The notes below the pieces were generated by a model that searched no databases, was not told the DNA's origin, and saw nothing but the letters and a program-made list of their open reading frames with translations. 64,000 bases of DNA from Vogesella sp. LIG4. GTDB taxonomy: Bacteria; Pseudomonadota; Gammaproteobacteria; Burkholderiales; Chromobacteriaceae. Within the stretch, counting starts at the first letter, position 1; each line of letters begins with the position of its first letter. The position numbers and the translations under genes were made by a program. This document shows, piece after piece, positions 2 to 62,532 of this stretch. Location of the stretch: the NCBI RefSeq assembly GCF_900090205.1, contig NZ_LT607802.1:2728828-2792827 (forward strand), in the 5' to 3' direction.

Positions 2-364
2 CAATCCACTCAGGAAATCGCCGCCATCATCGGCGCCATCCAGAATGTGTCCAGCAGCGCTGCCGAACGCATGCAGGGCGTGGTGAGCAATGTGGAAAGC
101 GGGGTGAGCGAGGCCGGCAAGGCGCGCGGCGCCATCCAGTCGATTGCCGAAGTAGCCGGCCAGAGCCGGCACCTGGTGGGTGAAATCAGCCACGCCATCC
201 GCGAGCAGGGCTCTGCGGCCAACAGTATTGCGCTGCAGGTGGAAAGCGTGGCGCAGATGGCGGAGGAAAACTCGGCAGCGGCGGCGCTGGTTACCGATCT
301 GGCCAGCCGGCTGCACCAGCTGTCACAGGCGATGCAGCAGGAAGTGGCGGTGTATCGGGTGTGA
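2..364 (+). CDS. Methyl-accepting chemotaxis protein, C-terminal fragment
   Basis: This open frame enters from the left edge and ends with TGA at 362-364, leaving about 120 residues. The sequence is an Ala/Gln/Glu/Ser-rich amphipathic helix typical of the cytoplasmic signalling coiled coil of chemotaxis receptors. It starts in the segment just after the conserved hairpin tip (QEIAAIIGAIQNVSSSAAE), followed by heptads such as IREQGSAANSIALQVE and MAEENSAAAALV. In the family this part carries the adaptation helix, and it normally signals to CheA through CheW. No C-terminal NWETF-type pentapeptide is present, because it ends QEVAVYRV. The ligand-binding part lies outside the window, so the stimulus cannot be inferred. 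Confidence 0.85.
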   Translation, partial: QSTQEIAAIIGAIQNVSSSAAERMQGVVSNVESGVSEAGKARGAIQSIAEVAGQSRHLVGEISHAIREQGSAANSIALQVESVAQMAEENSAAAALVTDLASRLHQLSQAMQQEVAVYRV

Positions 365-420
365 TGCTGCGCAGTTGCAGCAATCGCTACTGCACACTTG
401 TTCTGCGCCAGACTGTGTGA

Positions 421-660
421 ATCCGCTACGCGGATGATGATTCTGGTGCCGGTTCCGCCCGGCGGACGGGGTACTTTCTTTTGCTTCGCCAAAAGAAAGT
501 ACCCAAAGAAAAGGCGCCCCGGGGCTGCTCGAAACCCCGTGCAAAAAGGCACGCCCCAGGCGCCGCCGAACTCGCCCCTCGCTAACGGCTCGGGACTCAG
601 ACAGATCGGCGTCTTAAAACCTGGGGCAAATTAATACAATTTCGCCCGGCTCGCGCCGAC
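421..660. repeat. Betaproteobacterial-type intergenic repeat with long hairpin
   Basis: This gene-free stretch carries a perfect 15-bp stem (469-483 with 490-504, loop CTTCGC) built from GGGTACTTTCTTTTG and its complement. It is followed by GC-rich text running into CAATTTCGCCCGGCTCGC at about 640. From memory, similar text occurs between genes in many betaproteobacteria and is often mis-annotated as small ORFs. The left edge (ATCCGCTACGCGGATGATGATT, in part) reappears at about 46423-46444. The short ORFs that cross it are not believed to be genes. The stem could end transcription of the receptor gene. Confidence 0.6.
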
Positions 661-728
661 GGGTTCAGGGCAAGTCGATACCGTTCTAACACCTGTACGC
701 TTGGGAGCGATTGCCTAAGCGAATACTC

Positions 729-1499
729 TCACCCCAGCGCCAGTGCCAGGTAGTCGTAATCACGGCGTGCGGCGGCCACCTGGGTCAGGTCCAGGCTGAT
801 GTCCAGCATCTGTTCATCCTCGCCGCTAGCCAGCAGCAGGGTATTGCCGTACGGGTCGGCCACCTGGCTTTCGCCGCAGAAGGTGTAGTCGTCGCCCGGC
901 CCCACGCGGTTGCACATGGCCACGAATAGCTGGTTCTCCATCGCGCGCATCGGCACCGCCATGCGGTGCACCCGGCCGTAGGGCTGCATATTGCCGTCCA
1001 GCACCACGATCAGCTCCGCGCCCTGGTGCGCCAGCTGGCGCGCGGTTTCCGGGAACTCGATGTCGAAGCAGATCAGCAGGCCGATGCGGATGCCGCGCCA
1101 AGTCACCACCGGAAACTGCCGGCCGCGCTGGAACACGCCCTGGTCCGACAGGTAGAGGTGCGATTTGCGGTAGTCGAGCACGATGCTGCCATCGGCATCG
1201 ATCAGCAGCCCGCAGTTGTAGTAGCCGTCGTCGCGGCGCTCGGCCACGCCGATGGCGACAGCCACCCGGGCAGCCTGCGCGGCGGCGCGCAGTGCGCTTA
1301 CCACCGGGCCGTCCAGCGGCTCGGCCAGCTCGGCGATATTGCCGGCAGTGGGAAAGCCGGGGACGAAGGTTTCCGGCAGCACCAGCAGATCAGCCTGGCC
1401 GCTGGCGGCGTGAATGGCGGCCAGTGCCTTTTCCAGGTTGGCCGCAGGGTCGCCATCGCGGCAGCTGGCCTGCAGCAGGCGCAGTTTCAGTGTGCTCAT
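729..1499 (-). CDS. Nitrilase-superfamily carbon-nitrogen hydrolase
   Basis: A 256-residue protein that fits one nitrilase/amidase domain. The three expected catalytic residues are visible: Glu43 in LVLPETF, Lys112 in DYRKSHLY and Cys144 in GLLICFDIEFPE. Family members hydrolyse amides or N-carbamoyl compounds and some nitriles in the cytosol, through a cysteine thioester. It is the last gene of the minus-strand operon that starts with the ureohydrolase, 45 bp after the permease gene. A role in deamidating a product or side product of the imported nitrogen compound is an inference. The exact substrate cannot be read from sequence; omega-amidase or N-carbamoylputrescine amidase activities are alternatives. 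Confidence 0.85.
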   Translation of the reverse strand: MSTLKLRLLQASCRDGDPAANLEKALAAIHAASGQADLLVLPETFVPGFPTAGNIAELAEPLDGPVVSALRAAAQAARVAVAIGVAERRDDGYYNCGLLIDADGSIVLDYRKSHLYLSDQGVFQRGRQFPVVTWRGIRIGLLICFDIEFPETARQLAHQGAELIVVLDGNMQPYGRVHRMAVPMRAMENQLFVAMCNRVGPGDDYTFCGESQVADPYGNTLLLASGEDEQMLDISLDLTQVAAARRDYDYLALALG

Positions 1500-1544
1500 A
1501 TGATTCGGGCCCGACCTGGCTGAGCAGGCCGGGCCTCGCTCCTT

Positions 1545-3026
1545 TTAGGCTGCCGGTTCGTAGGCCACACCCTTGTCATGGGCGTGGTGCGGGTCGAAGC
1601 GCAGGCTGGCCAGTGCCTGCTCGCTGGCCTCGATGGCCGGTTGCTCCGCCGGCAGGTCCAGGCTGCGGCTCAGCAGGTAGTAGGCCACGCCGGCTACCAG
1701 CAGGCCCACCAGCCAGCCGATGTCCACGCCGCCCAACCGGGTGGCGATGGGGCCGGTATACACCCCCGGCAGCACGAAGAACGGCACGGTGGCGGCAAAG
1801 CCCAGCAGGTAGGCGGCCAGGCCCTGCTTGCCCCAGATGCCGTAGATGCCATGCGGGGTGAACAGGTGGGTAATGGCATAGCGGCCACGGCGTACATAGA
1901 AGTAGTCCACCAGGTTGACGGCGGTCCAGGGCACCAGCAGGTACAGCATGATGGTCAGCGCGGCGAACAGCATCTCGATGGCGTTGACGCTGGTGGCCAG
2001 CGAAATCGCCGTCCACAGCGCGGTGAGCAGCACGATCACCACCACGCGCAGCGCACGGGTTGGCCGCACGGTCTTCAGCGAATCCATGGCGGTGACCACG
2101 GTGAGCATGCCGCTGTAGGCGTTCAACCCCATGGTGGCCACCATGGCGGTGATGGACGACAGCGCGATCAGCGCGCCAAAGCCGTGGAACACCGCATTGC
2201 CGGACTGGTACAGCGCCACCAGGCCGTCGCTGGCGCCCAGGCGGGTAGCCAGCCAGGCGCCCATGGCGATCAGCCAGATCGCCGACGAGGCCGCACCCAG
2301 GAACACCGAGGCGATGATGGAGCGCGCCGGGGTATTGCGCGGCAGGTAGCGCGAGTAGTCGGACACATACGGCGCGTAGGTGATGTTGTAGCTGGCGCTG
2401 GCGGCGATCTGCGCGGCAAACGCCACCAGGCTGAAGCCGCCCGCGCTCGGCACCTTGCCGCCGGCACCGCCGGTGAGGATGGCGTAGCTCAGCACCAGGT
2501 ACAGCGGCAGGCTGAGGTAGAACACCCAGCGGAACACGCGGTGCAGCCAGTCATGGCCGTAGATCGCCAGCAGCATGCCGATCAGCGAGGTGATGACGGT
2601 CACCACGGTGGCGTTCCAGCCGAAGATGCCGTTCAGGCCGCTGGCCATCAGCACCACGTCCACCACGTTGAAGCCGACAAAGGTGAACAGCGTGCCGATC
2701 AGCACCAGCGACACGCCGCGGTAGCCGAACTGCGCCCGCGACTGGATCATCTGCGGCAGGCCAAGCTCGGCACCCTGCGAGGCGTGAAAGGCCATGAACA
2801 GCGTGCCGAACAGGATGCCGATGGCGCCGGCCAGCGCGGTGTAGCCCAGCGACAGGCCCATGCTGGGGCCGATGAAGCCGATGGCGATGGTGAAAAACTG
2901 GAAATTGCCGAGGAACCAGAACGGCCCCTGGTCGCGCACGCGGCCATGGCGCTCGTGTTCCGGTACGTAATCGATGGAACGTACTTCGATACCGCCGCGT
3001 GGCGGTTCGCCAGTGTGATTTGGCAT
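1545..3026 (-). CDS. NCS1-family cytosine/purine-type permease
   Basis: A 493-residue integral membrane protein with about twelve hydrophobic segments. Its N-terminal signature is that of nucleobase:cation symporter-1 proteins (DQGPFWFLGNFQFFTIAIG, then GPSMGLSLGYTALAG). Family members import nucleobases, hydantoins, allantoin or thiamine precursors with H+ or Na+. It lies 87 bp after the aldehyde dehydrogenase gene and 45 bp before the amidase, so it is probably cotranscribed and supplies the operon with its substrate. Because the operon contains a ureohydrolase, the cargo may be a guanidino compound instead of a nucleobase. That is an inference from context. The C-terminal about 40 residues are hydrophilic. 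Confidence 0.85.
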   Translation of the reverse strand: MPNHTGEPPRGGIEVRSIDYVPEHERHGRVRDQGPFWFLGNFQFFTIAIGFIGPSMGLSLGYTALAGAIGILFGTLFMAFHASQGAELGLPQMIQSRAQFGYRGVSLVLIGTLFTFVGFNVVDVVLMASGLNGIFGWNATVVTVITSLIGMLLAIYGHDWLHRVFRWVFYLSLPLYLVLSYAILTGGAGGKVPSAGGFSLVAFAAQIAASASYNITYAPYVSDYSRYLPRNTPARSIIASVFLGAASSAIWLIAMGAWLATRLGASDGLVALYQSGNAVFHGFGALIALSSITAMVATMGLNAYSGMLTVVTAMDSLKTVRPTRALRVVVIVLLTALWTAISLATSVNAIEMLFAALTIMLYLLVPWTAVNLVDYFYVRRGRYAITHLFTPHGIYGIWGKQGLAAYLLGFAATVPFFVLPGVYTGPIATRLGGVDIGWLVGLLVAGVAYYLLSRSLDLPAEQPAIEASEQALASLRFDPHHAHDKGVAYEPAA

Positions 3027-3113: not shown

Positions 3114-4556
3114 TCAGATGGCCGTTACGACATGCCGTATCTCCTGAAAGGCGGCGAGGCCCCATGGCCCCAGTTCACGCCCGAGGCCGCTTTGCTTGCA
3201 GCCGCCCCAGGCAGTTTGCGGAAAAATCAGCTGCGGGCTGTTCACCCAGGCCAGCCCCACTTCCAGCTCGGCGGCCAGCCGTTCAGCACGGGCGGCATCG
3301 CCGCCGACCACGGTGGCCACCAGGCCGAAATCGCTGTCGTTGGCCAGCGCCACCGCTTCGGCGTCGTCCGCGAAGGCGCGCACGCAGGCCACCGGGCCGA
3401 ATATCTCTTCGCGCCACAGCCGGCTGTGCGCCGGCAGCTCGGCAAACACCGTCGGCTGCAGGAAGTAACCGCGCGCATGCTGCGCCGGGCGCTGCCCGCC
3501 GGCGAGCAGGCGACCGCCATCGGCCAGGCCCTGGGTGATATAGCCCTGCACCCGCTGGTACTGCGCGGCGCTGATCAGCGGGCCGATGTCGGCCTCGCTG
3601 CCGCCAATGCGAAGGTTGGCCGCAGCGGCGGCAAAGCGGGCAACGAACTCGGCGTATAGCGGCTGCGCAACCAGGATGCGCGCGGTGGCCGAGCACATCT
3701 GGCCGGCGTTGAAGAAGGCGCCGCCCACGGCCAGCTGCACCGCCTGCTCCAGCTCGGCGTCGTCCAGCACGATCAGCGCCGACTTGCCGCCCAGCTCCAG
3801 GCTGACGCGCGCCATGCGTTCGGCAGCGGTGCGCATCACCGCCTGGCCGCTCTTGTTGCTGCCGGTGAAGGAGATCTTGTCCACGCCGGGGTGGCTGCTC
3901 AATGCCGCGCCCACGTCGCCGCCGCCGCACACCAGGTTGACCACGCCGGCAGGCAGGCCGGCGGCATGGATGATACGCAGCAGCTCGATTTCCGCCAGCG
4001 GGGTGAGTTCGGATGGCTTCAGCACCACGCTGCAGCCTGCGGCCAACGCTGGCGCCAGTTTCCAGGCTGTGGTCACCATCGGGAAATTCCACGGCACGAT
4101 CAAGGCCGCCACACCCACCGGCTCGCGGCGCACGCTGGCGCGGAAGCCTTCGTCCGGCAGCGCCACGGCAGCAGGCTGCTGGCCATCGCTTTGCAGGCAC
4201 AGCCCGGCGTAGTAGTCGAAGGTGCCGATGACATCCTGCACGTCCAGCTCGGCTTCCAGCCGCGGCTTGCCGTTATTGCGCATCTGCAGCGCAATGAGCC
4301 GTTCGCGGGCGGCATCCACGCCGCTGGCAATGGCGCGCAGCAGCTCGCCGCGCTGGCGCGCCGGCAGCCGGCGCCAGCCTGGTAGCGCCTGGCGGGCAGT
4401 CTGTACTGCGGCATCCACCTGGGCGGCATCGGCCGCGGCCAGGGTGGCCAGCACGCTTTCATCGGCGGGGTTGGTCACCGTCAGCGTGGCGCCCTTGCCC
4501 GGCTGCCAGAGGTTGCCGATCAGCACCGCCTGCGGCGGGGTGAGGTGTTCGCTCAT
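3114..4556 (-). CDS. NAD(P)-dependent aldehyde dehydrogenase
   Basis: A 480-residue member of the aldehyde dehydrogenase superfamily. Visible landmarks are Asn157 in VPWNFPM, the LKPSE cofactor segment near residue 180, Glu254 in LELGGKSA and the catalytic Cys288 in FNAGQMCSA. The start was taken at the second Met (ATGAGC), because the GAGGGG ribosome-binding site touches the first ATG but is well spaced from the second. It follows the NTF2-like gene by 10 bp. Overall it resembles betaine- or aminoaldehyde dehydrogenases. With a ureohydrolase next door, 4-guanidinobutyraldehyde or 4-aminobutyraldehyde are reasonable substrates, but this is inference. Confidence 0.85.
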   Translation of the reverse strand: MSEHLTPPQAVLIGNLWQPGKGATLTVTNPADESVLATLAAADAAQVDAAVQTARQALPGWRRLPARQRGELLRAIASGVDAARERLIALQMRNNGKPRLEAELDVQDVIGTFDYYAGLCLQSDGQQPAAVALPDEGFRASVRREPVGVAALIVPWNFPMVTTAWKLAPALAAGCSVVLKPSELTPLAEIELLRIIHAAGLPAGVVNLVCGGGDVGAALSSHPGVDKISFTGSNKSGQAVMRTAAERMARVSLELGGKSALIVLDDAELEQAVQLAVGGAFFNAGQMCSATARILVAQPLYAEFVARFAAAAANLRIGGSEADIGPLISAAQYQRVQGYITQGLADGGRLLAGGQRPAQHARGYFLQPTVFAELPAHSRLWREEIFGPVACVRAFADDAEAVALANDSDFGLVATVVGGDAARAERLAAELEVGLAWVNSPQLIFPQTAWGGCKQSGLGRELGPWGLAAFQEIRHVVTAI

Positions 4557-4966: not shown

Positions 4967-5920
4967 TTAGCTGCGGTACTCGACGCCGGGCAGCACGCAC
5001 AGCATCTCGAAGGCAAGGTTGGCCGCAAGCAGCGCGGTGGTGCCCAGCGGGTCGTACGGCGGGGATACTTCCACTAGGTCGGCGCCCACCAGGTTGACGC
5101 CCTTGAGGCCGCGGATGATCTCCAGCGCCTGCGGCACGGTGAGGCCGGCGATTTCCGGGGTGCCGGTGCCGGGGGCGAATGCCGGGTCGATGCCGTCGAT
5201 GTCGAAGCTCAGGTACACCGGGCCGTCGCCCAGCATCTCGCGCACCTGCTGCATCAGCGGCGCCAGCGATTTGCCCCAGCAGTCCTCGGCCTGCACCACG
5301 CGGAAGCCCTGCTCGCGGCACCAGTCGAAATCCTCGGCGGCGTAGCCGGTGCCGCGCAGGCCGATCTGCACCACGCGGTTGCAGTCCAGCAGGCCTTCTT
5401 CCACCGCGCGGCGGAACGGCGTGCCGTGGGCGATCTTCTCGCCGAACATGGTGTCGTTCACGTCGGCATGGGCATCCACGTGCACCACGCCCACCTTGCC
5501 GTACTGCTTGTGCATGGCGCGCAGGATGGGCAGGGCGATGGTGTGGTCGCCGCCCAGGGTGATGGGGCGGCAGCCGCCGGCGATGATGTCGTCGAAGGCT
5601 TGCTCGATGCGCAGGATGGAGTCGTGCAGGTTGTACGGGTTGGTGGCCACGTCACCGATGTCGGCCACGCGCAGCGAATCGAACGGTGCGGCGCGGGTGG
5701 CCATATTGTAGGGGCGCAGCAGCACCGATTCGGCGCGGATCTGGCGCGGGCCCAGGCGGGTGCCGGTGCGGTTGGACGTGCCCAGGTCGAAAGGCACGCC
5801 CACGAAGCAGGCATCCAGCCCGGCGCTGGAATCGCATTGCGGCAGGCGCATCATGCTGGCAATGCCGCCGAAACGCGGCATCTCGTTGCCGCTCATCGGC
5901 TGGAAGGTAGGATGGGACAT
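4967..5920 (-). CDS. Ureohydrolase: agmatinase/guanidinobutyrase family
   Basis: A 317-residue enzyme of the arginase/agmatinase fold. All manganese ligands are present: His126 in GGDHTIALP, Asp149/His151/Asp153 in VDAHADVND, and Asp240/Asp242 in SFDIDGIDPAF. Family members cleave a guanidino group to urea plus an amine. The length and the GTGTPE segment fit guanidinobutyrase or agmatinase equally well. The start at MSHPTF has GGAGA spaced ten bases upstream; an in-frame ATG eight codons earlier lacks one. It is the first gene of the minus-strand operon and is divergent from a LysR regulator, which would be expected to control it. A ~140-bp repeat lies just upstream of the start. Confidence 0.85.
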   Translation of the reverse strand: MSHPTFQPMSGNEMPRFGGIASMMRLPQCDSSAGLDACFVGVPFDLGTSNRTGTRLGPRQIRAESVLLRPYNMATRAAPFDSLRVADIGDVATNPYNLHDSILRIEQAFDDIIAGGCRPITLGGDHTIALPILRAMHKQYGKVGVVHVDAHADVNDTMFGEKIAHGTPFRRAVEEGLLDCNRVVQIGLRGTGYAAEDFDWCREQGFRVVQAEDCWGKSLAPLMQQVREMLGDGPVYLSFDIDGIDPAFAPGTGTPEIAGLTVPQALEIIRGLKGVNLVGADLVEVSPPYDPLGTTALLAANLAFEMLCVLPGVEYRS

Positions 5921-7722: not shown

Positions 7723-7984
7723 GATGTGCTCCATGGCTGGGGGCTGACGGGCAGACAAGGCCGGGCAAGGTTGGCCGCATGGTGGTGCTACTGGCAGGCG
7801 TGGCAGCGCAGCCGGCTACGCTGCCGGAGCCTTATGCTGCCCGATATTGCTGTGGCGTGCATGGTATTGCTGCCGGATGCGGCCAACATGGCGTGCCGCC
7901 TGGCGCAAGCGGCACAGCGCGCAGTGCTCGACGCGTATCAATCTTCATGTTTGCGTATGCCTGGCGTGTGCTTGCAGTAATGAA

Positions 7985-10244: not shown

Positions 10245-11168
10245 TTAAACCTGGCGCATTCCCAGCGTGTGCTTGCAGCGCGGGTAGTGCTGGCAGCCCC
10301 AGAAACTGGCCCGGCCGGCCTTGCCGCTTACCGCGCGCATGCGGCCGCCACAGCCGGGGCAGGTGGGAATGTGGTAATCGCCAGCCGTGGCAAAACGCAG
10401 CAGCTCGTCCCGTGCCGGCTGCGGCAGACGCAGGAACATCATCAGCAGCATCTCGCCATCCATCAGCGTGATGTTGTTGCTGCTGGCGACTGCTTTGGCA
10501 TCATCGCTGTACTGGCCGCAGGTCATGAAAAACGCCTTGGCGATCTTCTCGTGCGTCATCACCCCCAGCAGCTCGCGCACCGGCTTCACCCCGACAAACC
10601 GTTCACCCCAGGCCTTGCACTGCACGATGGAAGTGGCACGGCCGGAATCATCCTGGAACAGGCGGATATCGATGCCGCCATCCGGCCCCAGCGGCGTGGT
10701 CTCCGCGCGTATGCCCTTCAGCTCATAAAACTTCTGGCACACATCCTCGAAGCGCTTCCACTCCAGCGCGCGTATCAACTCCAGCGACCAGTTGGCCGCA
10801 AGCCCGTCCACCGGTGCCGGCTCGCTCTGCGTGGCAGGGGAGGTCATCAAGTCGCTGACGCGGGTGTCGTAATGCGACGGCTCAGCCTGCACCGGCTTGA
10901 GCGGCGCCAGCTTGCCCGCGCTGCCTCCATCTTGCTGCCGGCTGCGCAGCCAGGACAGTAACGCCAGCAATAACAGGGAACCGGCCACCAGCCAGGCCAG
11001 CTGCGACAGCATGATCACCACGATGGCAAACACCGGGTTGCCACCAAGCACCGCCGGCAATACCGCCTTCATCACGATGAAAGCCACCCCCGCCAGTACC
11101 GCGCTGACCTGCCACGGCGCGGCAATCAACTCTGCGGCCAACCCTTGCTTGCGTGATCTGCGTGCCAT
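10245..11168 (-). CDS. Membrane-anchored Mrr-type restriction endonuclease with zinc ribbon
   Basis: A 307-residue protein in three parts. Residues 18-75 hold two hydrophobic segments separated by a short loop. Residues 125-245 form an Mrr-like PD-(D/E)XK nuclease domain, with Glu141, Asp167 in GGIDIRL and the QCK pair Gln183/Lys185. The C-terminus has a topoisomerase-type zinc ribbon with Cys270, Cys273, Cys292 and Cys298. Related proteins are annotated as restriction endonucleases that may cut modified DNA, but their targets are mostly untested. Anchoring in the inner membrane would place the nuclease where DNA enters the cell. It is a single gene beside toxin-antitoxin and HEPN genes. Its coding sequence holds two of the 10-mers, so it is not obviously recent. 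Confidence 0.82.
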   Translation of the reverse strand: MARRSRKQGLAAELIAAPWQVSAVLAGVAFIVMKAVLPAVLGGNPVFAIVVIMLSQLAWLVAGSLLLLALLSWLRSRQQDGGSAGKLAPLKPVQAEPSHYDTRVSDLMTSPATQSEPAPVDGLAANWSLELIRALEWKRFEDVCQKFYELKGIRAETTPLGPDGGIDIRLFQDDSGRATSIVQCKAWGERFVGVKPVRELLGVMTHEKIAKAFFMTCGQYSDDAKAVASSNNITLMDGEMLLMMFLRLPQPARDELLRFATAGDYHIPTCPGCGGRMRAVSGKAGRASFWGCQHYPRCKHTLGMRQV

Positions 11169-13158: not shown

Positions 13159-14071
13159 TCAAATCTCCCCCTGCGCCGTTGTATGGCATTGAAATTACCC
13201 GATGGAGTCCGATTATCAAGGATGAATCATGCGGACAGCATCCATGCCCGTCCGCTTTGGACGTGCTTTTGTGTCTGGCTGCTAATAGCCGATTTCAGTC
13301 GTTAAGACTCCCGACTTGGTAACACGGGGGGCTACGGCTATATCCCGAAAAATGCCCTTGTCCTTGTTGATGGTGTCCGCTATGTTAGTTAATGTCAACG
13401 GCAACTACTTCCTTGGTCTACAGGCGGCGCACAAATCCTAGATCGTGAGGGCAGGCATAGAGGCCTATATCAGTCCCTCGGGCTACGTACACTCTTGCGT
13501 CACACTTCTCATATATCGAAAGCCGACATGACAACTTCCCCTTTGCTAACAAGGGTTTGGAGTTGTTCAGTCTTCGGCTGATGCTATGGCTCCATTCCCG
13601 AACCTGAACGGAGCCATCATGTCTCTGACTACTCATGTCGAGTCGGATCTGACGGCGTGTGAGACACGCTTTCTGCTGGCCGGCCACGACATGGTGCAGT
13701 GCACCTGCTACCTGCATCGCGCTGCACACTCGATTTCCCCTTCCTGAGCATTGAAAAAGAACGCTTGCGCCAAGCCAGCCAGCGGGATACCTGCGTGCTG
13801 ATTCTTGGCGGCATGGCGTGGTCGCTCAAGCCGTATGGCAGTGCCTCGGGCTATTGGTAGGAGATCAAGAGCGCGAATGTCAGCGTGAAATTTGGAAAGT
13901 AATGAAAGGCTTGGACTTGCAGAGCCCGGGCTTGCTGAGCATGGCTATTGTGAGCTTGATTGGGATGTGGGAGAGGAAGAGGCTGCGGTGCTGTGGCCAA
14001 TGTTGGCCGCACAAGGAAATGTCGAGCAGAAACGCAAAAAAGCCACCCGAAGGTGGCTTTTTTGTTTCTAC
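13159..14071. other. Degenerate gene-poor region next to the tRNA genes
   Basis: No intact gene can be supported in these 913 bases. One broken protein-like piece is an ATG frame at 13619-13747, followed in another frame by ERLRQASQRDTCVLILGG ending in a stop near 13860. The piece at 13890-14030 encodes Glu/Leu-rich text without known relatives. Composition is mixed, and the only 10-mer (14002-14011) is at the right edge. The region looks like the worn boundary of inserted DNA. Confidence 0.45.
14036..14063 (-). terminator. Terminator after tRNA-Glu
   Basis: AAAAAAGCCACC-CGA-AGGTGGCTTTTTT forms a strong stem with T-runs on both strands, 9 bp beyond the encoded CCA end of tRNA-Glu on the minus strand. 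Confidence 0.8.
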
Positions 14072-14186: not shown

Positions 14187-14262
<76 letters not shown>

Positions 14263-14405: not shown

Positions 14406-15254
14406 ATGGCGGTGGATCATTACGAGAACTTTCCGGTAGGGTCGCTGGCGCTGCCGCGGCGCATGCGCAAGGCGGTGCATGTGATCTACCGTTTTGCGCG
14501 CCATGCCGACGATATTGCCGACGAGGGCGATGCCCCTGCGGTGGAAAGGTTGGCCGCATTGCAGGCGCTGCGCGAGGAGCTGGACCGCATCGCCGCCGGC
14601 GAGCCGGCGCAACAGCCGCTGATGCAGGCGCTGGCCGGTGTCATTGCCGAACGGCAACTGCCGCTGCAGCCGTTCTATGACTTGCTATCGGCGTTCAGCC
14701 AGGACGTGGAAAAGACCCGCTACCAGGATTTTGCCGAGCTGGTGGACTACTGCCGCCGTTCCGCCAACCCGGTGGGGCGGCTGATGCTGGCGCTGTACGG
14801 CGAGCACGACAGCCGCAGCATGGCGATGTCGGATGGCATCTGCACCGCGCTGCAGCTGATCAATTTCTGGCAGGACGTGGCCATAGACTGGCAGAAGGGC
14901 CGGGTGTACATCCCGCAGGAAGATCTGGCGAAATTCCGCATCAGCGAGCAGCAGATTGCGCGCGGCAATGCCGGCGGCGTGTGGCCGATGCTGATGGATA
15001 AAGAGGTGAAGCGCGCGCTGGCCATGCTGCAGGCCGGCTCGCCGCTGGCGCTCAAGCTCAAGGGGCGTTTTGGCCTGGAGCTGCGCATGATCGTGCTGGG
15101 CGGCGAGCGCATTCTGAAAAAGATTCACGATGCCCGTGGCGATGTGTTCAACCATCGCCCGGTACTGGGCTGGAGAGACTGGCCCGTGATTATCGGCAAG
15201 GCGCTGTGGGCGCCGTTTGCCAGACGGGCAACCCGAAAAACGCCGGGTTTCTAA
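14406..15254 (+). CDS. hpnC: HpnC, squalene synthase partner enzyme
   Basis: A 282-residue trans-isoprenyl diphosphate synthase-like protein. The two Asp-rich motifs of the squalene/phytoene synthase family are FARHADDIADEGD and NFWQDVAIDWQKGR. In bacteria HpnC converts presqualene diphosphate to hydroxysqualene, between HpnD and HpnE. The start MAVDHYENFPVGSL is the family's usual N-terminus; longer frames upstream run into the tRNA promoter. The C-terminal residues after about APFARRA are encoded by a family A repeat that also supplies the stop codon, so the natural end may have been replaced. hpnD and hpnE follow, giving a complete route to squalene. No squalene-hopene cyclase is in the window. 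Confidence 0.9.
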   Translation: MAVDHYENFPVGSLALPRRMRKAVHVIYRFARHADDIADEGDAPAVERLAALQALREELDRIAAGEPAQQPLMQALAGVIAERQLPLQPFYDLLSAFSQDVEKTRYQDFAELVDYCRRSANPVGRLMLALYGEHDSRSMAMSDGICTALQLINFWQDVAIDWQKGRVYIPQEDLAKFRISEQQIARGNAGGVWPMLMDKEVKRALAMLQAGSPLALKLKGRFGLELRMIVLGGERILKKIHDARGDVFNHRPVLGWRDWPVIIGKALWAPFARRATRKTPGF

Positions 15255-18969: not shown

Positions 18970-20334
<1,365 letters not shown>

Positions 20335-44240: not shown

Positions 44241-44265
44241 TTGGCCGCATGGCTTGCGGCCAACC
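44241..44265 (-). repeat. Imperfect inverted pair of uptake-like 10-mers
   Basis: TTGGCCGCA-TGGCT-TGCGGCCAA forms a 9-bp stem between iolI and iolG. One arm is a perfect 10-mer (44255-44264); the other lacks its first base. Confidence 0.5.
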
Positions 44266-46153: not shown

Positions 46154-46526
46154 GATGATCTTCTCCAGGTTGCCGCACCCTGTTCGAGTGCTGTGTTGTG
46201 CGCTCAATCTAGGGGCTGGCGAACGGAAGATCAGCTGCAATATTGACGATAAATCGTCAAAATGAGATTGAACCGACGGGTGGCTGGCTGGATGATGGCG
46301 AGCGGCAGGGGAAAAGAACGCTGGCCGCAGGGAGGCTTGGCGTTACGCCATACCCGTGCGACGTGCGGGTAGGTTGGGTTGAGCGTAGCGAAGCCCAACG
46401 TTTACCGCCTTATCCGGTTTTGTATCCGCTGCGCGGATGATGATTTGAAGTCGCCGGCTCCGCTGGGCGCACACTCCATGAAGTATGCGGCCAACGTTGC
46501 ATGGCACCACCACCACGGAAGCACAT
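46154..46526. other. Divergent intergenic region with a short repeat
   Basis: These 373 bases separate the TIM-barrel gene and the LacI gene. They contain a hairpin-forming piece, GTTGGGTT...AAGCCCAAC (about 46373-46399). They also hold a block similar to the window's first repeat (ATCCGCTGCGCGGATGATGATT, in part, about 46423-46444) and one 10-mer at 46485-46494. No clear GAA-N6-TTC or GCAACCGG site was found. Confidence 0.5.
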
Positions 46527-47740: not shown

Positions 47741-49597
47741 GTGAAGACGGTACGTTTGACGATGGCACAGGCGCTGGTGCGCTACCTGGCCGCGCAGTAT
47801 GTGGAAGCCGCGGACGGCTCGCGCGAGCAGCTGTTCGGCGGGGTGTGGGCGATCTTCGGCCACGGCAACGTGGCCGGCCTGGGTGAAGCGCTGTACGCCA
47901 TGCGCGACAAGCTGCCCACCTTCCGCGCCCATAACGAGCAGGGCATGGCGCTGGCCGCCACCGCCTACGCCAAGGCGCATTTCCGCCGCCGCATGATGGC
48001 GATCAGCACCTCCATCGGCCCCGGCTGCACCAATCTGGTGACCGCTGCCGCCACCGCCCACGTCAACCGCCTGCCGCTGCTGCTGCTGCCGGGCGATATC
48101 TTCATCACCCGCGCGCCGGACCCGGTGCTGCAGCAGGTGGAAGACTTCCACGACGGCGGCGTGTCGGCGGTGGACAGCCTGCGCCCGGTGTCGCGCTATT
48201 TCGACCGCATCGTGGTACCGGAGCAGCTGCTGACCGCGCTGCCGCGCGCCATCGCCTACCTGACCGACCCGGCGCTGTGCGGCCCGGTAACGCTGGCGCT
48301 GCCGCAGGACGTGCAGGCCATGGCCTTCGACTGGCCGGAATCCTTCTTCGACGAGCGCACCGTGCGCTTTCGCCAGCCGCCGGCCGAGGCAGCCGAGGTG
48401 GCGGCGCTGGCGGCGATCCTGAAAACCGCCAAGCGCCCGATGATCGTTTCCGGTGGCGGCGTGCTGTACAGCAAGGGCGGCGTGGATGCGCTGCGCAGCT
48501 TTGCCGAGCGCCATGGCATCCCGGTAGGCGAGAGCCAGGGCGGCAAGGGCGCGCTGGCGTGGGATCACCCGCTGCTGGCCGGCTCGGTGGGCGTCACCGG
48601 TACGCCTGCGGCCAACGCCATTGCGCAGGATGCCGACGTGGTGCTGGCAGTGGGCACCCGGCTGCAGGACTTCACCACCGGCTCGCACGCGCTGTATGCG
48701 CAGGCCCGGCTGCTGTCCATCAACGTCAATACCTTCGATGCCATCAAGTGGGGCGGCACCAGCATCCAGGCCGATGCCAGCGCCGGTCTGGCCGCGCTGT
48801 CCGCTGCGCTGGGCGACTGGCGTGCCGATGCCGGCTGGGAGGCGCAGACACGCAAGCTGTGCGACGGCTGGCGCCGCCAGCTGGCGGAAATCGTGGTCAG
48901 CTCGCGCGCCGCGCTGCCCACCTATGCCGAAGCCATCGGCGCGGTGCAGGCCTCTGCGGCCAACTCTGCCGACAACGACATCGTGGTCTGCGCGGCCGGC
49001 ACGCTGCCGGCGGAGCTGCACAAGCTGTGGCGCACCAGCCGCCCCGGCGGCTACCACATGGAGTACGGCTACTCCTGCATGGGCTACGAAGTGGCCGGCG
49101 GCCTGGGCGCCAAGATGGCGCAGCCCGATCGCGAGGTCATCGTGATGGTGGGCGACGGCAGCTACATGATGCTGAACAACGAACTGGCCACCTCGGTGAT
49201 GCTGGGGCAGAAGATCATCGTGGTGCTGCTGGACAATGCCGGCTACGCCTGCATCAACCGCCTGCAGCAGGCCTGCGGCGGTGCGCAGTTCAACAATATG
49301 TACGAGCACTGCCTGACCGGGCCGGATGGCGCGCCGGCCATCGATTTCGAGCTCAACGCCCGCTCGCTGGGGGCGGAGGCGGAAACGGTACGCAGCGTGG
49401 CCGAGCTGGAAGCGGCGATGCGGCGTGCGCGCGCGTCGAAGAAGAGCTATCTGATCAGCCTGCAGGTGGACGGCCCGCAGTGCACGCCCGAAGGCGGCAG
49501 CTGGTGGCAGGTGGGCATTCCGGAGGTGTCGGAGCGCAGCGAGGTGCGCGACGCCCGTGCCCGCTACGAGGATGCCGTGCGCCGCCAGCGTTATTGA
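47741..49597 (+). CDS. iolD: IolD, trihydroxycyclohexane-1,2-dione hydrolase
   Basis: A 618-residue thiamine-diphosphate enzyme that opens the inositol ring to 5-deoxy-glucuronate. The N-terminal domain has the cofactor Glu in AHNEQGMALAATAYAK. The C-terminal domain has the diphosphate/Mg2+ motif VGDGSYMMLNNELATSVML, followed by LDNAGYACINRLQ. Length and text match IolD rather than acetolactate synthases. The start is GTG (47741) with GGAG six bases before; 14 extra upstream codons in frame overlap that site. A terminator follows at 49617. Confidence 0.92.
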   Translation: MKTVRLTMAQALVRYLAAQYVEAADGSREQLFGGVWAIFGHGNVAGLGEALYAMRDKLPTFRAHNEQGMALAATAYAKAHFRRRMMAISTSIGPGCTNLVTAAATAHVNRLPLLLLPGDIFITRAPDPVLQQVEDFHDGGVSAVDSLRPVSRYFDRIVVPEQLLTALPRAIAYLTDPALCGPVTLALPQDVQAMAFDWPESFFDERTVRFRQPPAEAAEVAALAAILKTAKRPMIVSGGGVLYSKGGVDALRSFAERHGIPVGESQGGKGALAWDHPLLAGSVGVTGTPAANAIAQDADVVLAVGTRLQDFTTGSHALYAQARLLSINVNTFDAIKWGGTSIQADASAGLAALSAALGDWRADAGWEAQTRKLCDGWRRQLAEIVVSSRAALPTYAEAIGAVQASAANSADNDIVVCAAGTLPAELHKLWRTSRPGGYHMEYGYSCMGYEVAGGLGAKMAQPDREVIVMVGDGSYMMLNNELATSVMLGQKIIVVLLDNAGYACINRLQQACGGAQFNNMYEHCLTGPDGAPAIDFELNARSLGAEAETVRSVAELEAAMRRARASKKSYLISLQVDGPQCTPEGGSWWQVGIPEVSERSEVRDARARYEDAVRRQRY

Positions 49598-53777: not shown

Positions 53778-53807
53778 AAGGTTGGCCGCAAGCATGCGGC
53801 CAACCTT
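53778..53807 (+). terminator. Hairpin made of paired uptake-like 10-mers after iatP
   Basis: AAGGTTGGCCGCA-AGCA-TGCGGCCAACCTT is a perfect 13-bp stem followed by GTTGCTGTTT. It is nearly identical to the hairpin at 38580 and sits where the iat operon should end. Confidence 0.65.
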
Positions 53808-54007: not shown

Positions 54008-54928
54008 ATGGCCCAGGCCCGCCTGCCGCTGACTGTTTCCCCCGCCGACGCCGTGTTGCTGCTGGTGACCCTGCTGGCCGCCGCCGGCTGGCTGTTTTCC
54101 AAGGCAGTGCTGCAGTTCATGCCGCCGTTGCTGTTCATGGCGCTGCGTTTCGGGCTTAGCGGCCTGTTGCTGCTGGCGCTGGCCCGCAGCCAGGGCCAGG
54201 TATTGCCGCAGCACGGGCTGCGCAGCTGCGCGCGTGGCGGCTGCCTGCTGGGTGTGGCGATGATGTTCTGGATCAGCGGCCTGCAACTGAGCAGCAATCT
54301 GGGCGTGGCCGCCTTTATCAGCAGCCTGGGCATCGTGCTGGCGCCGTTCGCCGCGCGTCTGCTGTTCGCGGTGCCGCTGTCGCGCGCCGCCTGGGGGGCG
54401 ATGCTGTGTGCCGGGTTGGGCATGGCGTGCATGTCGCTGCGCGGCGACGGCACGGTACATGCCGCCGACTGGCTGCTGTTGCTGGCCGCCGCCGGCCAGG
54501 CGGCCTACCTGGCGGCAAACAGCCGTGACATGGCGCGGCTGCCGGTGCTGCTGGCGATTGCCTTGCAGCTGCTGGTGGCGGCGCTGTGGTGTCTGGCGGG
54601 GAGTGTGCTGCTGGAGTCCTGGCAGGCGGTGTCGCTGCTGCAGGGCTGGCTGCCGCTGGCGGCCAGTGTGCTGCTGGCCACCTGTCTGCGCTTTGTGCTG
54701 CAGGGCTGGGGGCAGGGGCGGATGCCGGTGGCGCGTTCGGCTTTCATCCTGCTGCTGGAGCCGGTGTGGACGGCACTGTTGGCCGCATGGTGGTTCGGCA
54801 CCGGCTTTGCGCCGCAGCAGTGGCTGGGGGCGGCGCTGGTGCTGGCCGCCCTGTTGCTCAGTCGTCGTAGGCCCCGGCGTCCTTCGTCTCTTCCACCACC
54901 AGTTCCATGCGGTAGGACAGGGCAATGA
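54008..54928 (+). CDS. DMT/EamA-family transporter
   Basis: A 306-residue membrane protein with about ten hydrophobic segments in two EamA-like halves. Typical text includes FMALRFGLSGLLLLAL, SSNLGVAAFISSLGIVLAPF and SAFILLLEPVWTALLAAWWF. Members export or import small metabolites, amino acids or sugars; the cargo is unknown. The start at MAQARL follows a weak GGAG. Its last 71 bp overlap the convergent iolR gene, so the two transcripts would be complementary there. It is not clearly part of the inositol pathway. Confidence 0.8.
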   Translation: MAQARLPLTVSPADAVLLLVTLLAAAGWLFSKAVLQFMPPLLFMALRFGLSGLLLLALARSQGQVLPQHGLRSCARGGCLLGVAMMFWISGLQLSSNLGVAAFISSLGIVLAPFAARLLFAVPLSRAAWGAMLCAGLGMACMSLRGDGTVHAADWLLLLAAAGQAAYLAANSRDMARLPVLLAIALQLLVAALWCLAGSVLLESWQAVSLLQGWLPLAASVLLATCLRFVLQGWGQGRMPVARSAFILLLEPVWTALLAAWWFGTGFAPQQWLGAALVLAALLLSRRRPRRPSSLPPPVPCGRTGQ

Positions 54929-55937: not shown

Positions 55938-57890
55938 ATGGACATCATGCAAAACCAGACAACCTTCGCTTCCGACCGTAGCTTCGACGTGATCTGCCTG
56001 GGCCGCCTGGCGGTGGATCTGTACGCCCGCCAGCTGGGGGCGCGTCTGGAAGATGCCAGCAGCCTGGCCAAGTACCTGGGTGGCTCGTCGGGCAATATCG
56101 CCTTCGGCACCGCCCGCCTGGGCCTGAAGTCGGCCATGCTGTCGCGTGTCGGCGACGAACAGATGGGCCGCTTCCTGCTGGAAACGCTGACCCGCGAGGG
56201 CTGCGATGTCAGCCAGGTGAAGATCGACAGCGAACGCCTCACCGGCCTGGTGCTGCTGGGCATCAAGGATCGCGATACCTTCCCGCTGCTGTTCTACCGC
56301 GAGAACTGTGCCGACATGGCGCTGTGCGAGGACGATATCGATGAAGGTTTCATCGCCAGCAGCAAGAGCCTGCTGGTCACCGGCACCCACCTGTCCACCG
56401 AGAAGGTGAATGCCGCCAGCCGCAAGGCGCTGGCCTTTGCCCGCAAGCACAATGTGCGCACCGTGCTGGATATCGATTACCGCCCGGTGCTGTGGGGCCT
56501 GACCGGCCGCGGCGATGGCGAGCAGCGTTTCATCGCCAATGATGGCGTCAGCGCCCACCTGCAATCGGTGCTGCCGCTGTTCGACCTGATCGTGGGGACC
56601 GAAGAGGAATTCCAGATCGCCGGCGGCAAGCCGGCGCTGCTGGACTGCCTGCAGGTGGTGCGCCAGTTGGCGCCGCAGGCGGTGCTGGTGGTCAAGCGCG
56701 GCCCGCTGGGCTGCGCGGTGATCGACGGCGAGGTGCCGGCCGATATCGACGCTGCCTTCACCGTGAAGGGCGCGCAGGTGGAAGTAATGAACGTGCTGGG
56801 TGCCGGTGATGCCTTCCTGTCCGGCTTCCTGTCGGTATGGCTGCGCGGTGGCAATTACGCCGCTGCCTGCCGCACGGCGAATGCCTGCGGCGCGCTAACG
56901 GTATCGCGCCATGGCTGCTCGGTGGCCATGCCCACCCAGGACGAACTGGATTATTTCCTGGGCCTGCCGGTAACGCCACAACGCCCGGGCGAGGATGCCA
57001 CGCTCACCCGTCTGCACCGCGTCAGCGTCAAGCGCCCGCAGTGGGACAATCTGTGCGTGTTCGCCTTCGATCACCGCAACCAGTTCTTCGAGCTGGCGCG
57101 CAAGAACGGCGTGGCGGAAAGCCGCATCACCCGCCTGAAGGAGCTGCTGGTGCAGGCGGTAGGGCAGACCGAGGAAGCCAACAAGCTGCAGGGGCGTATC
57201 GGCATCCTGGTGGATGACCGCTACGGCGAGGATGCCATGTACGCCGCCACCGGCCGTGGCTGGTGGATCGGCCGCCCAATCGAGCTGCCGGGTTCCAACC
57301 CGCTGGAGTTCGACCATGGCCGCGCCATGGCTGCGCGCCTGGAATTCTGGCCGCAGGAACACATCATCAAGTGTCTGGTGCAGTACCACCCGGACGACGA
57401 GGTGGGCAACCGCCTGGAGCAGGAAGCACAGGTGCGCGCGGTTTACGACATGGCGCGCATCAGCGGCCACGAGTTGCTGCTGGAAGTGATCCCGTCCAGG
57501 AAGCTGCCGCAGCAGGCGGATACCGTGCTGCGTGCCATGAAGCGCTTCTACAACCTGGGCATCTATCCGGAGTGGTGGAAGCTGGAATCGATGAGCGCCG
57601 AGCAATGGGCCGAAGTGGATACCCTGCTGGAAGAGCGCGACCCGTACTGCCGCGGCGTGGTGCTGCTGGGCCTGAATGCCCCGGTGAGCGAACTGCGCAA
57701 GGGCTTCGAGCAGGCGCGGGGCAGCCGCAGCTGCCGCGGCTTCATGGTTGGCCGCACGCTGTTCCAGGAACCGTCGCAGCGCTGGCTGGCCGGCGAAATC
57801 GACGATGCCGGCCTGATTGCCGCCGCCCGTCACAACTTTGAAACGCTGATCGACATCTGGCAGGCGCAGCGCCGCCAGGCTCAGCAATAA
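55938..57890 (+). CDS. iolC: IolC kinase fused to DUF2090 (IolJ-like) domain
   Basis: A 650-residue two-domain protein. Residues 15-335 form a PfkB-type kinase, 5-dehydro-2-deoxygluconokinase, with YLGGSSGNIAFGTARLG, LDIDYRPVLWG and the catalytic NVLGAGDAFLSGF. Residues 350-645 are a DUF2090 domain (NLCVFAFDHRNQFFELARK, then WWIGRPIELPGSNPLEFDHG). This domain is thought to act as the aldolase that splits the phosphorylated product into dihydroxyacetone phosphate and malonate semialdehyde, replacing IolJ. No separate IolJ gene is in the window. An ATG three codons later (55947) is an equally possible start. Confidence 0.9.
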   Translation: MDIMQNQTTFASDRSFDVICLGRLAVDLYARQLGARLEDASSLAKYLGGSSGNIAFGTARLGLKSAMLSRVGDEQMGRFLLETLTREGCDVSQVKIDSERLTGLVLLGIKDRDTFPLLFYRENCADMALCEDDIDEGFIASSKSLLVTGTHLSTEKVNAASRKALAFARKHNVRTVLDIDYRPVLWGLTGRGDGEQRFIANDGVSAHLQSVLPLFDLIVGTEEEFQIAGGKPALLDCLQVVRQLAPQAVLVVKRGPLGCAVIDGEVPADIDAAFTVKGAQVEVMNVLGAGDAFLSGFLSVWLRGGNYAAACRTANACGALTVSRHGCSVAMPTQDELDYFLGLPVTPQRPGEDATLTRLHRVSVKRPQWDNLCVFAFDHRNQFFELARKNGVAESRITRLKELLVQAVGQTEEANKLQGRIGILVDDRYGEDAMYAATGRGWWIGRPIELPGSNPLEFDHGRAMAARLEFWPQEHIIKCLVQYHPDDEVGNRLEQEAQVRAVYDMARISGHELLLEVIPSRKLPQQADTVLRAMKRFYNLGIYPEWWKLESMSAEQWAEVDTLLEERDPYCRGVVLLGLNAPVSELRKGFEQARGSRSCRGFMVGRTLFQEPSQRWLAGEIDDAGLIAAARHNFETLIDIWQAQRRQAQQ

Positions 57891-59728: not shown

Positions 59729-61225
59729 ATGAACCGCATCATTTCCCACTACATCAACGGTCAGCACAGCGCCGGCACCGGTACGCGCAACAGCGCCGTT
59801 TACAACCCCGCCAGCGGCAAGGTACAGGCCGAGGTGGTACTGGCCGAGCAGGCCGATGTCAATGCCGTTGTCGCCGCCGCCAGGGCCGCCTTTCCGGCCT
59901 GGAGTGAAACCGCGCCGCTGCGCCGCGCCCGCATCATGTTCAAGTTCAAGATGCTGCTGGAAGCGCGCCAGGACGAACTGGCGGCGCTGATCAGCAGCGA
60001 GCACGGCAAGGTGCATTCCGATGCGCTGGGCGAAGTGACCCGTGGTCTGGAAGTGGTGGAGTTCGCCTGCGGCATTCCGCAGCTGCTGAAAGGCGAGTAC
60101 ACCGAACAGGTTGGCCGCGGCATCGACGCCTGGACCATGCGCCAGGCGCTGGGCGTGGTGGCCGGCATCACCCCGTTCAACTTCCCGGCCATGGTGCCGA
60201 TGTGGATGTTCCCGGTGGCCATTGCCTGCGGCAACACTTTCATCCTCAAGCCGTCGGAGCGTGACCCGTCCGCCGCGCTGTTCATTGCCGAACTGCTGAG
60301 CGAAGCCGGTCTGCCGGACGGCGTGTTCAACGTGCTGCAGGGCGACAAGCTGGCGGTGGACGGCCTGCTGACCCACCCGGACGTGCAGGCGGTGAGCTTC
60401 GTCGGCTCCACGCCGATTGCGCAGTACATCTACGAAACCGGCGCCCGTCACGGCAAGCGCGTGCAGGCGCTGGGCGGTGCCAAGAACCATATGGTGGTAA
60501 TGCCGGATGCCGACCTGGAGCAGACCGTTGATGCGCTGATGGGCGCGGCCTACGGTTCCGCCGGCGAGCGCTGCATGGCGATCTCGGTGGCGGTGGCGGT
60601 GGGCGACGTGGCCGACAAGCTGGTGGCCAGCCTGTCCGAGCGCCTCAAGACGCTGAAAGTGGGGCCGGGCAGCGACCCTAAGTCGGAAATGGGCCCGCTG
60701 GTGACCCGCGCCCACTTCGACAAGGTGTGCGGCTACGTGGCGCGCGGCGTGGAAGAGGGCGCCAGCCTGGTGGTGGACGGCCGCGGCCTGACCGTGCCGG
60801 GCTGCGAGGACGGCTTCTTCCTGGGGGGCTGCCTGTTCGACAACGTCACCACCGACATGACCATCTATAAGGAAGAGATTTTCGGCCCGGTGCTGGCCAT
60901 CGTGCGCGTGGACAGCTTTGCCGAGGCGGTGGAGATGATCAACGCCCATGCCTTCGGCAACGGTACCGCCATCTTCACCCGCGACGGCGATGCCGCACGC
61001 GAATTCACCCATCGCATCCAGGTGGGCATGGTAGGCGTCAACGTGCCGCTGCCGGTGCCGATGGCCTTCCACAGTTTTGGCGGTTGGAAAGCCTCGCTGT
61101 TCGGCGATCATCACATGCATGGCCCGGAAGGCGTGCGTTTCTACACCCGCATGAAGGCGGTGACCACCCGCTGGCCGACCGGCATCCGCGCCGGCGCCGA
61201 GTTCGCCATGCCGACCATGAAGTAA
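59729..61225 (+). CDS. iolA: IolA/MmsA, methylmalonate-semialdehyde dehydrogenase
   Basis: A 498-residue CoA-acylating aldehyde dehydrogenase converting malonate semialdehyde to acetyl-CoA. The motifs are [39 protein letters not shown] and the catalytic Cys282 in [21 protein letters not shown] and the family ending [14 protein letters not shown] are also present. The start has AGAGGA before it. It is the last gene of the iolC-E-B-A unit, closed by a terminator at 61261. Confidence 0.94.
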
Positions 61226-61260
61226 ACCCTCACGCGACTCTCCCAAGACGCTGTGTTTAT

Positions 61261-61286
61261 GCCACCCCACGAGGGTGGCTTTTTTC
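61261..61286 (+). terminator. Intrinsic terminator after iolA
   Basis: GCCACCC-CACGA-GGGTGGC followed by TTTTTT, 35 bp after the iolA stop codon. Confidence 0.82.
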
Positions 61287-61363
61287 TGGCATCCAATTTG
61301 CTGCGCCTGGCCAGGCGGGCAGTGGTTTGCCAGCCGCCTGCTGGCGTGGCCATTGTGACTGTT

Positions 61364-61379
61364 GTGTTGTTTACAACAC
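61364..61379. promoter_or_regulatory. Isolated palindrome, GntR-like operator candidate
   Basis: GTGTTGTTTACAACAC has the core TTGTTTACAA, close to the TTGTNTACAA pattern of some GntR-family sites. No GntR gene or start codon is nearby, so the assignment is weak. Confidence 0.3.
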
Positions 61380-62532
61380 TTTTGATTAAAATCATTGCCA
61401 GTTGCGGCGGCAGCCTGCTGCGGCGGGCGGCATGGTTGGCCGCAAGGCCGGCAGGGGAGGTCGGCAGCGACGATATGCCGTTTGCTTTTTTGTTGCTGTC
61501 ATATTTGCTGGCGCAGGGTTTGCCGGGCCGCTGCTGGCCGCTGCGTGGCGGGCCGCAGTGGGCATGCTCCCGGAGCCTGCTGGGGCAAGGCCGACAGCCA
61601 GGGTGCCTGTTTGGCCCGATAACAACCGCGGGAAGGGGAGGAAACGACGTCGGCATTTCTCGCCGCTGGCCGCGATGCCGGACCACCTAGCGACTGTTTA
61701 CGATTATCGACGGCTGTTGTTGAGAATATTGAGCGCCATGTCAGTGCATGACCGCTGAAACGGCCATTTAATGGTGCAGAGCAGCGAAAAAGTGTTAAAC
61801 GGAAAAGACAGAAACAGGGCTTGCGTAAAATTTATTAAACAATATACTGGGTAAAGGTCGATACAGATGTGTTGGCCGAACCGTCCGGATGGCGCCGCGC
61901 AGGAGGAGACTGCGGTGTAAAAAAACAGCCACCGGTCGTCTTGGTAGTCCGACAGACGGTGCGCGTATCAGTAACGGGTACGACGAAAACAGCAACGGCA
62001 AACCTGGTGCGGCAAATCAATAAGTGCTGCAGCCAGGCGGAGAAATAGAGATGATCCGCTCCAGCGAACATCATCAGACATGCGGTGACAGACCAGGCCA
62101 TTTGGCAGGTGCAGGCGTAGTAGTAAGCGCGGCAGCTGCGGCAGGCTGTTTCCCGTTCCCAGGTACTTCCGAACAGTTCATTTTCGGCAAAGATGGCGGC
62201 CGTTTCGCCGCCGTACTGCCGCAGGCAACTGCCCAACTTCAAGCCCACAGCTCAGGGCCTCCCTTATATACTCGCTAGCCCGCCGGCGGCCCCTTCCCCG
62301 CAGGGTGGGACGATCGTGTGGATAGGGTGCATACTTAAGTTCGCCGGGCATAAACGGTGGGCATAAAATGGTCTTGGGCGATACTTCGTAGTCGTACGCC
62401 TTGGTGCGTGCCTGGCGGGACCTTGACCGGTAATCCGTTTTGGCAGTTGGAATGAATATCTTTGAGTGTCCAATGCAGAATCACGTCAAACCTGCATGGG
62501 CTGTTTCTGAAAACTTGTGGATGGGAAACTGT

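Follow-up and report, generated by a model that had tools for sequence, protein, structure and literature searches.

A frequent 10-base word of Vogesella sp. LIG4 and its sister words in Chromobacteriaceae as probable DNA uptake sequences

Introduction

Along a stretch of 64,000 bases of Vogesella sp. LIG4 (contig NZ_LT607802.1; the whole stretch is called the window below), one 10-base word, GTTGGCCGCA, recurs on both strands at a rate that calls for an explanation: what is this word, and what keeps it in the genome? A first-pass annotation of the window had proposed an uptake sequence belonging to an undescribed dialect in a Chromobacteriaceae-like lineage. Our analysis of the window, of its genome and of related genomes indicates that AAGGTTGGCCGCA, with the strict 10-base core GTTGGCCGCA, is very probably a DNA uptake sequence read by a relative of ComP.

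The available text of Frye et al. (2013; PMC3630211) places the origin of DNA uptake sequences (DUS) after the split from the Chromobacterium violaceum line, names five genomes without obvious DUS (Laribacter, Lutiella, Pseudogulbenkiania and two Chromobacterium), and states that BLAST found no ComP in C. violaceum. In the portions accessible to us, two other papers handle DUS within Neisseriaceae (PMC10715097; PMC11316581), and eight dialects were still counted in 2025 (PMC12616744). We found no earlier report of uptake sequences in Chromobacteriaceae in the open-licence literature of PubMed Central, and among the matches listed for GTTGGCCGCA as a text string, the titles look unrelated.

Abundance and Strictness of the Word

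The whole genome, a single contig of 4,147,242 bases, contains 2,895 copies of GTTGGCCGCA, 1,458 forward and 1,437 reverse. This is one copy per 1.4 kb, close to the DUS-like density of about one per 1.5 kb claimed from the window. The same word read backwards, used as a control, gave 8 copies (4 + 4). Words were ranked on 454 kb sampled across the 4.15-Mb genome, as the first-pass annotation had suggested doing for the genome as a check, and GTTGGCCGCA came first as the most over-represented 10-mer, with 324 copies for 6.35 expected.

The window itself holds 45 exact copies, where about 44 had been claimed, and all ten coordinates quoted as examples are among them. Orientations are nearly equal, as had been noticed, with 21 copies on the plus strand and 24 on the minus strand. 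GTTGGCCGCA is the top 10-mer in the window, and dinucleotide shuffles of the window yielded a mean of 0.55 copies and a maximum of 3, in line with the estimate of well under one copy by chance. The wider form that had been described, AGGTTGGCCGCA, is matched exactly at 18 of the 45 sites.

The 10-base core is strict, since each single core change of the 12-mer AGGTTGGCCGCA occurs 0 to 6 times, against 96 exact copies. Upstream of the core, positions -3 to -1 show a preference (A 56%, A 56%, G 52%; 324 sites) and are not fixed. Little is conserved past about 13 bases, and a dispersed repeat of the repetitive extragenic palindromic (REP) or mobile type was ruled out on this basis.

The copies of the window are listed below. 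Every copy is an exact match to GTTGGCCGCA, and placements between genes come from the gene predictor.

214..223, minus strand, copy
1437..1446, plus strand, copy, AGG form
2059..2068, plus strand, copy
3615..3624, plus strand, copy, AGG form
4038..4047, minus strand, copy
5018..5027, plus strand, copy, AGG form
7770..7779, plus strand, copy, AGG form, intergenic
7878..7887, minus strand, copy, intergenic
10791..10800, plus strand, copy
11133..11142, minus strand, copy
14002..14011, plus strand, copy, intergenic, near two tRNA genes
14549..14558, plus strand, copy, AGG form
16296..16305, minus strand, copy, AGG form
16461..16470, plus strand, copy
16878..16887, plus strand, copy
17334..17343, minus strand, copy, intergenic (divergent)
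19092..19101, minus strand, copy
19737..19746, minus strand, copy
21213..21222, minus strand, copy, AGG form, intergenic (convergent)
22539..22548, plus strand, copy
25641..25650, minus strand, copy, AGG form, intergenic
26719..26728, minus strand, copy
29347..29356, minus strand, copy
30015..30024, minus strand, copy, AGG form
32275..32284, minus strand, copy
35014..35023, minus strand, copy
35176..35185, minus strand, copy, AGG form
36513..36522, minus strand, copy, intergenic (divergent)
38583..38606, inverted pair (38583 plus, 38597 minus), both AGG form, 4-base loop and stem AAGGTTGGCCGCA; the predicted start of a plus-strand gene (38584) falls inside it
39997..40006, plus strand, copy
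40670..40703, inverted pair (40670 plus, 40694 minus), 15-base arms, 4-base loop, between convergent genes
41713..41722, plus strand, copy, AGG form
42849..42858, plus strand, copy, AGG form
44255..44264, minus strand, copy, AGG form; facing partner at 44238-44249 (plus) with one mismatch (AGCTTGGCCGCA)
46486..46495, minus strand, copy
47091..47100, plus strand, copy, AGG form
48607..48616, minus strand, copy
48955..48964, minus strand, copy
53781..53804, inverted pair (53781 plus, 53795 minus), both AGG form, 4-base loop, between convergent genes
54778..54787, plus strand, copy, intergenic (convergent)
57747..57756, plus strand, copy
61435..61444, plus strand, copy, intergenic

The two transfer RNA (tRNA) genes lie at 14075-14147 and 14190-14262 of the window, on the minus strand. 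The predictor called zero genes across about 11.7-14.3 kb, the stretch that holds both of them.

Placement and Inverted Pairs

The gene map of the 454-kb sample comes from a codon-bias predictor of our own making (377 genes, 81.5% of the sequence coding), which makes the division between genic and intergenic copies approximate. With this map, 213 of the 324 copies lie in predicted genes, 108 are intergenic and 3 span a gene edge, which bears out the remark that copies occur both within genes and between them. Of the intergenic copies, convergent gaps (17.0 kb in all) hold 45, co-directional gaps (42.2 kb) 48 and divergent gaps (11.7 kb) 6, while the other 9 border the end of a stretch.

Hairpins had also been claimed for the window. 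In the larger sample, 29 pairs within 60 bases of each other are inverted and 1 is direct. Inverted pairs are intergenic in 21 of the 29 cases (11 convergent, 9 co-directional, 0 divergent, 1 undetermined). A spacer of 3 to 17 bases separates the arms in 15 of the 29, several of which read AAGGTTGGCCGCA-loop-TGCGGCCAACCTT, and the other 14 abut without a loop. In the 390 kb of this genome sampled outside the window, the abutting pairs are exact 20-base palindromes in both orders (9 and 5; for example L034:10827-10846 and L040:3279-3298). Such loop-less palindromes would suit a site read by a protein better than a hairpin.

Sister Words in Related Genomes

All 13 genomes examined from the genus of the window carry 1,871-2,895 copies of GTTGGCCGCA, about one per 1.4-2.1 kb and in both orientations. 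Elsewhere the word is scarce, with 8-58 copies in 24 of 24 other members of the family and 2-40 in 24 of 24 genomes of other families. Three dialects were distinguished by their last bases, CA (GTTGGCCGCA), AA (GTTGGCCGAA) and AG (GTTGGCCGAG); they share the stem GTTGGCCG, and the sister genera end in AA or AG. Counts of the CA word cover 37 of the 61 family genomes and 24 genomes outside the family; those of the AG word cover the family only.

The AA word reaches 183-2,168 copies in 8 of the 61 family genomes, distributed over genera g2 (3 of 3), g3 (2 of 2), g5 (1 of 1), g10 (1 of 1) and g6 (1 of 10); the lowest counts, 183 and 579, are weaker cases. The AG word has 1,590 and 1,940 copies in the two genomes of g4 (2 of 2), and the ComP relative of a g4 locus (L082) is identical to a Crenobacter cavernae protein (P0010). 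One of the three words is thus strong in 23 of the 61 family genomes. In the remaining 38, AA and AG are not strong, and the 14 of these that were also searched for CA are without it. GTTGGCCGAA has at most 47 copies in all 386 genomes outside the family (399 genomes were drawn from the order). In three 22-kb loci of named Chromobacterium (L094, L095, L124), and likewise in one locus each of Craterilacuibacter, Deefgea and Formivibrio, every word has 0-1 copies. A metagenome bin labelled "Neisseriaceae bacterium" (L091), a close relative judging by its PilQ, has 8 CA words in 12.6 kb.

As a positive control, the neisserial word GYCGTCTGAA was counted at 2,004-4,425 copies in 9 of 11 genomes of family f44, taken as Neisseriaceae, and at 3-19 copies in five members of the family of the window. 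The other two f44 genomes (G147 and G224) have a clear ComP relative with only 2 and 5 copies of the control word, and they may use another word or none.

Two minor signals were also seen. Two g8 genomes (G027 and G036) contain 92 and 85 copies of GTTGGCCGAG, and 62 and 45 of GTTGGCCGAA, against at most 21 for control words, which is perhaps a decayed or minor uptake word. Also, a second frequent word near TTCGATCAGGGT(A/G)A, whose parts occur 4-7 times per 40-60 kb, appears in loci from two genera, L041-L043 (G013) and L059-L060 (G020).

A ComP Relative Beside PilQ

The first-pass annotation had proposed to look for competence genes, and they are present in the genome of the window: PilQ (NCBIfam PilQ model, E 4e-140), ComEC-like and DprA-like proteins, a small helix-hairpin-helix protein of the ComEA type, and a ComP relative. 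The latter is a 139-residue prepilin (G000:C1:1559002-1559418) beside aroB-aroK-pilQ. A GspH-domain prepilin is encoded directly upstream with a 4-base overlap (L023:8470-9006, against 9003 for the ComP relative). Two other PF16732 proteins of this genome match PilE/PilA pilins and not ComP.

A profile of 26 relatives, 20 of them from word-bearing genomes, was searched against the PDB. Three ComP structures came first (1.5e-20 to 1.1e-18) over the globular domain, and general pilins followed from 1e-12, mostly over the N-terminal helix. The predicted model of the ComP relative is confident, with a mean predicted local distance difference test (pLDDT) score of 88.6. It shares with neisserial ComP (PDB 2m3k, 5hz7, 2nba) the conserved stretch ALLENAHF(M/L)E...FK.(T/S)S..WP.LP. 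The nearest named relative is that of V. facilis (P0021), at 56% identity; identities range over 38-56% in the genus and reach at most 38% in other genera.

A tree of 82 pilins unites the ComP relatives of both families at 100/99 and leaves 22 further PF16732 proteins, along with five PilE sequences, outside this clade. The tree, built from the pilin only on 149 columns, is flagged for its few columns and long branches, and the split of the two families inside the clade is weakly supported on the Chromobacteriaceae side (85/33). The ComP relative is thereby placed as an orthologue of the neisserial ComP clade; since this clade also includes two Aquitalea pilins and, from the neisserial side, 10 tandem paralogues, the orthology is to the clade as a whole. 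Two Neisseria-like genomes were found with comP in two copies, identical in G424 (L181, L188) and nearly identical in G315 (L177, L187).

The ComP relative was detected in 23 of 23 word-bearing genomes (E <=1.8e-12). In f44, the ComP profile is matched in 11 of 11 genomes (E <=6.5e-29), and one of these proteins resembles the N. subflava structure 2nba. Where relatives could be aligned, an Asn-Thr-Asp tripeptide is present in 20 of the 23 word-bearing genomes and in none of 7 word-free ones; the word-bearing exceptions are G016 (NVD), G024 (NAD) and G021, which lacks the tripeptide. Within genus g6, the word-bearing G017 has Asn-Thr-Asp and the three aligned word-free members do not. This pattern hints that the word and the ComP relative co-evolve, on counts that include related genomes.

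Comparison With Known Uptake Sequences

The system most likely works like DUS, yet it would not be a neisserial DUS dialect. Like DUS, the word is a 10-mer core in a 12-mer, with thousands of copies in both orientations, genus-level dialects and a ComP orthologue in the same genomes. Its inverted pairs recall those of DUS, for which a terminator location is described in the accessible text of PMC3630211; here, the likeness concerns placement only. The annotation had counted 8 of 12 matches to AGGTCGTCTGAA, which our recount reproduced exactly, and AGGTTGGCCGAA matches mucDUS and simDUS at 9 of 12 bases. The differences from DUS are the other family, G at +5, and G at +10 in two genomes, +10 being A in the CA and AA dialects and G in the AG dialect.

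A number of results speak against a ComP-read uptake sequence, the core of the word among them. According to the available part of Frye et al. (2013; PMC3630211), the eight described DUS dialects have CTG at +6 to +8 and A at +10, and all three dialects found here have CCG in place of CTG. The likeness to DUS is modest when judged by shuffles over strands and offsets: the AA dialect agrees at 9 of 12 positions (p 0.011) and the CA dialect at 8 of 12 (p 0.083). With a single sequence as query, the three ComP structures were again the best PDB matches, at weak values (2.5e-4, 1.3e-3, 0.036), and the ComP relative scores 23.8 bits against the Pfam ComP_DUS cut-off of 27.3. PF16732 is moreover broad and was dropped as a marker of DUS receptors because it is matched in 56 of 61 family genomes. 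As for the distribution, a clear ComP relative (2e-12 to 3e-9) is found in seven of the 14 word-free family members, next to weak matches in 4 and none in 3. The word-bearing G021 has a divergent relative on a long branch with the two Aquitalea pilins. The proteins also differ from neisserial ComP in the globular part, which has 2 cysteines in 28 of 30 ComP relatives and 3 in the other 2, against 4, as needed for two disulfides, in two neisserial ComPs, and the C-terminal stretch of neisserial ComP is missing. Finally, substitutions of R78, K94 and K108 impaired binding or transformation in Neisseria, as stated in the accessible part of PMC12061091; in the genus, all 13 proteins have a basic residue at mature position 94 (Arg in each) and none at 78 or 108, while among the eight relatives of the AA dialect two have Lys at 78 and four have Arg at 94.

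Because of the CCG core, the fewer cysteines and the missing basic residues, the receptor may recognise DNA in another way, or the word may be read by the neighbouring pilin. The initial proposal is supported: it was right about the lineage, and each of the three conditions that it had named as refuting it was checked and did not hold. As the CTG core is lacking, the words would better be named a sister set of uptake sequences than a neisserial dialect.

A resemblance to the uptake signal sequence (USS) of Pasteurellaceae, which belongs to a system of the same type, was also noted. TGCGGCCAACCTT, the reverse complement of AAGGTTGGCCGCA, matches the extended Hin-USS at 10 of 13 bases, the three mismatches being T-to-C changes throughout (p 0.0008 by shuffling, in a post-hoc test), and the AA and AG dialects match 9 and 8 of 13. 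However, the 9-base USS core AAGTGCGGT is matched at 5 bases only and the family is distant, and the resemblance is probably due to chance.

Alternative Explanations

The word could be an uptake sequence whose reader is a different minor pilin, such as the GspH/FimT-like one whose gene adjoins that of the ComP relative and overlaps its start. In 4 of 4 other genera examined, comP has a similar sequence at a distance of about 2-6 kb, FimT pilins of other bacteria are known to bind DNA, and the ComP relatives have fewer cysteines than neisserial ComP and lack two of its basic positions, as mentioned above. However, the known binding of FimT is not sequence-specific, and the ComP relative alone, out of the pilins that were compared, is orthologous to a known receptor of uptake sequences; we regard this alternative as unlikely. 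Explanations unrelated to uptake fare worse. Chromosome-maintenance signals (Chi-like, FtsK-orienting or nucleoid sites) and targets of methylation or restriction are also very abundant, and the word includes the palindrome GGCC. Chi and FtsK sites are polar, whereas the copies show no clear strand bias genome-wide or between leading and lagging strands (173/151 in the 454-kb sample, with strands assigned from the GC skew of each stretch), which ruled out a strand-polar signal of the Chi or FtsK kind. In addition, restriction usually leads to site avoidance, and both the inverted pairs between convergent genes and the genus-wise shift of the 3' end fit uptake sequences, so that a maintenance or restriction role appears improbable.

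It is also conceivable, if very improbable, that the word is abundant for an obscure cause and that the competence genes are coincidental. The cyanobacterial HIP1 offers a precedent, with thousands of copies of a short word and no accepted uptake role. Against this, GTTGGCCGCA is non-palindromic and tolerates almost no change, the family is related to Neisseriaceae, and a ComP relative co-occurs. Codon usage or a repeated protein motif, finally, could generate the word inside genes, and 154 of the 213 genic copies do fall in two frames, Ala-Ala-Asn (98), which uses common codons, and Leu-Ala-Ala (56). The Leu-Ala-Ala frame nevertheless depends on codons that are seldom used (TTG for 5.9% of Leu, GCA for 8.6% of Ala), and synonymous-codon shuffles gave a mean of 5.1 genic copies and a maximum of 13 in 200 shuffles, against 213. 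Also, the genic copies are spread over 164 of the 377 predicted genes, and 108 of the 324 copies are intergenic. This origin, which the first-pass annotation had named as one way in which its proposal might fail, was ruled out, and its chances are practically negligible.

Proposed Mechanism and Significance

Under the reading as an uptake sequence, a minor pilin of the type IV pilus would preferentially bind free DNA that carries the word on the outside of the cell; the ComP relative encoded beside pilQ is the most likely candidate. Retraction of the pilus through PilQ would bring the DNA to ComEA, and ComEC would then import a single strand, to be recombined by DprA and RecA; this route follows established competence biology. 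Self DNA would in this way enter and recombine more often, and for that reason the word would build up and be retained. The intergenic inverted pairs may double as transcription terminators.

Sister genera carry strong words of their own, and Chromobacterium and others show no strong signal of the words tested, which implies either repeated loss of the system or an uneven gain. We give about even chances to a scenario in which ComP-read uptake of self DNA is older than Neisseriaceae and was present in the ancestor of Neisseriaceae and Chromobacteriaceae with a word resembling AGG-T/C-T-G-x-C-x-G-A-A. The CTG core would then be a neisserial specialisation, and the system would have been lost repeatedly (Chromobacterium, most of g6, g8 and g9).

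This set of probable dialects, with its ComP relatives, sits in the family of Chromobacterium, where DUS were reported lacking in several genomes. Named Chromobacterium species themselves carry a ComP relative, without a strong signal of the tested words. Three dialects, apparent losses and an altered core would form a natural series for mapping ComP residues to the bases that they read, and the finding supplies environmental species for studies of DNA uptake.

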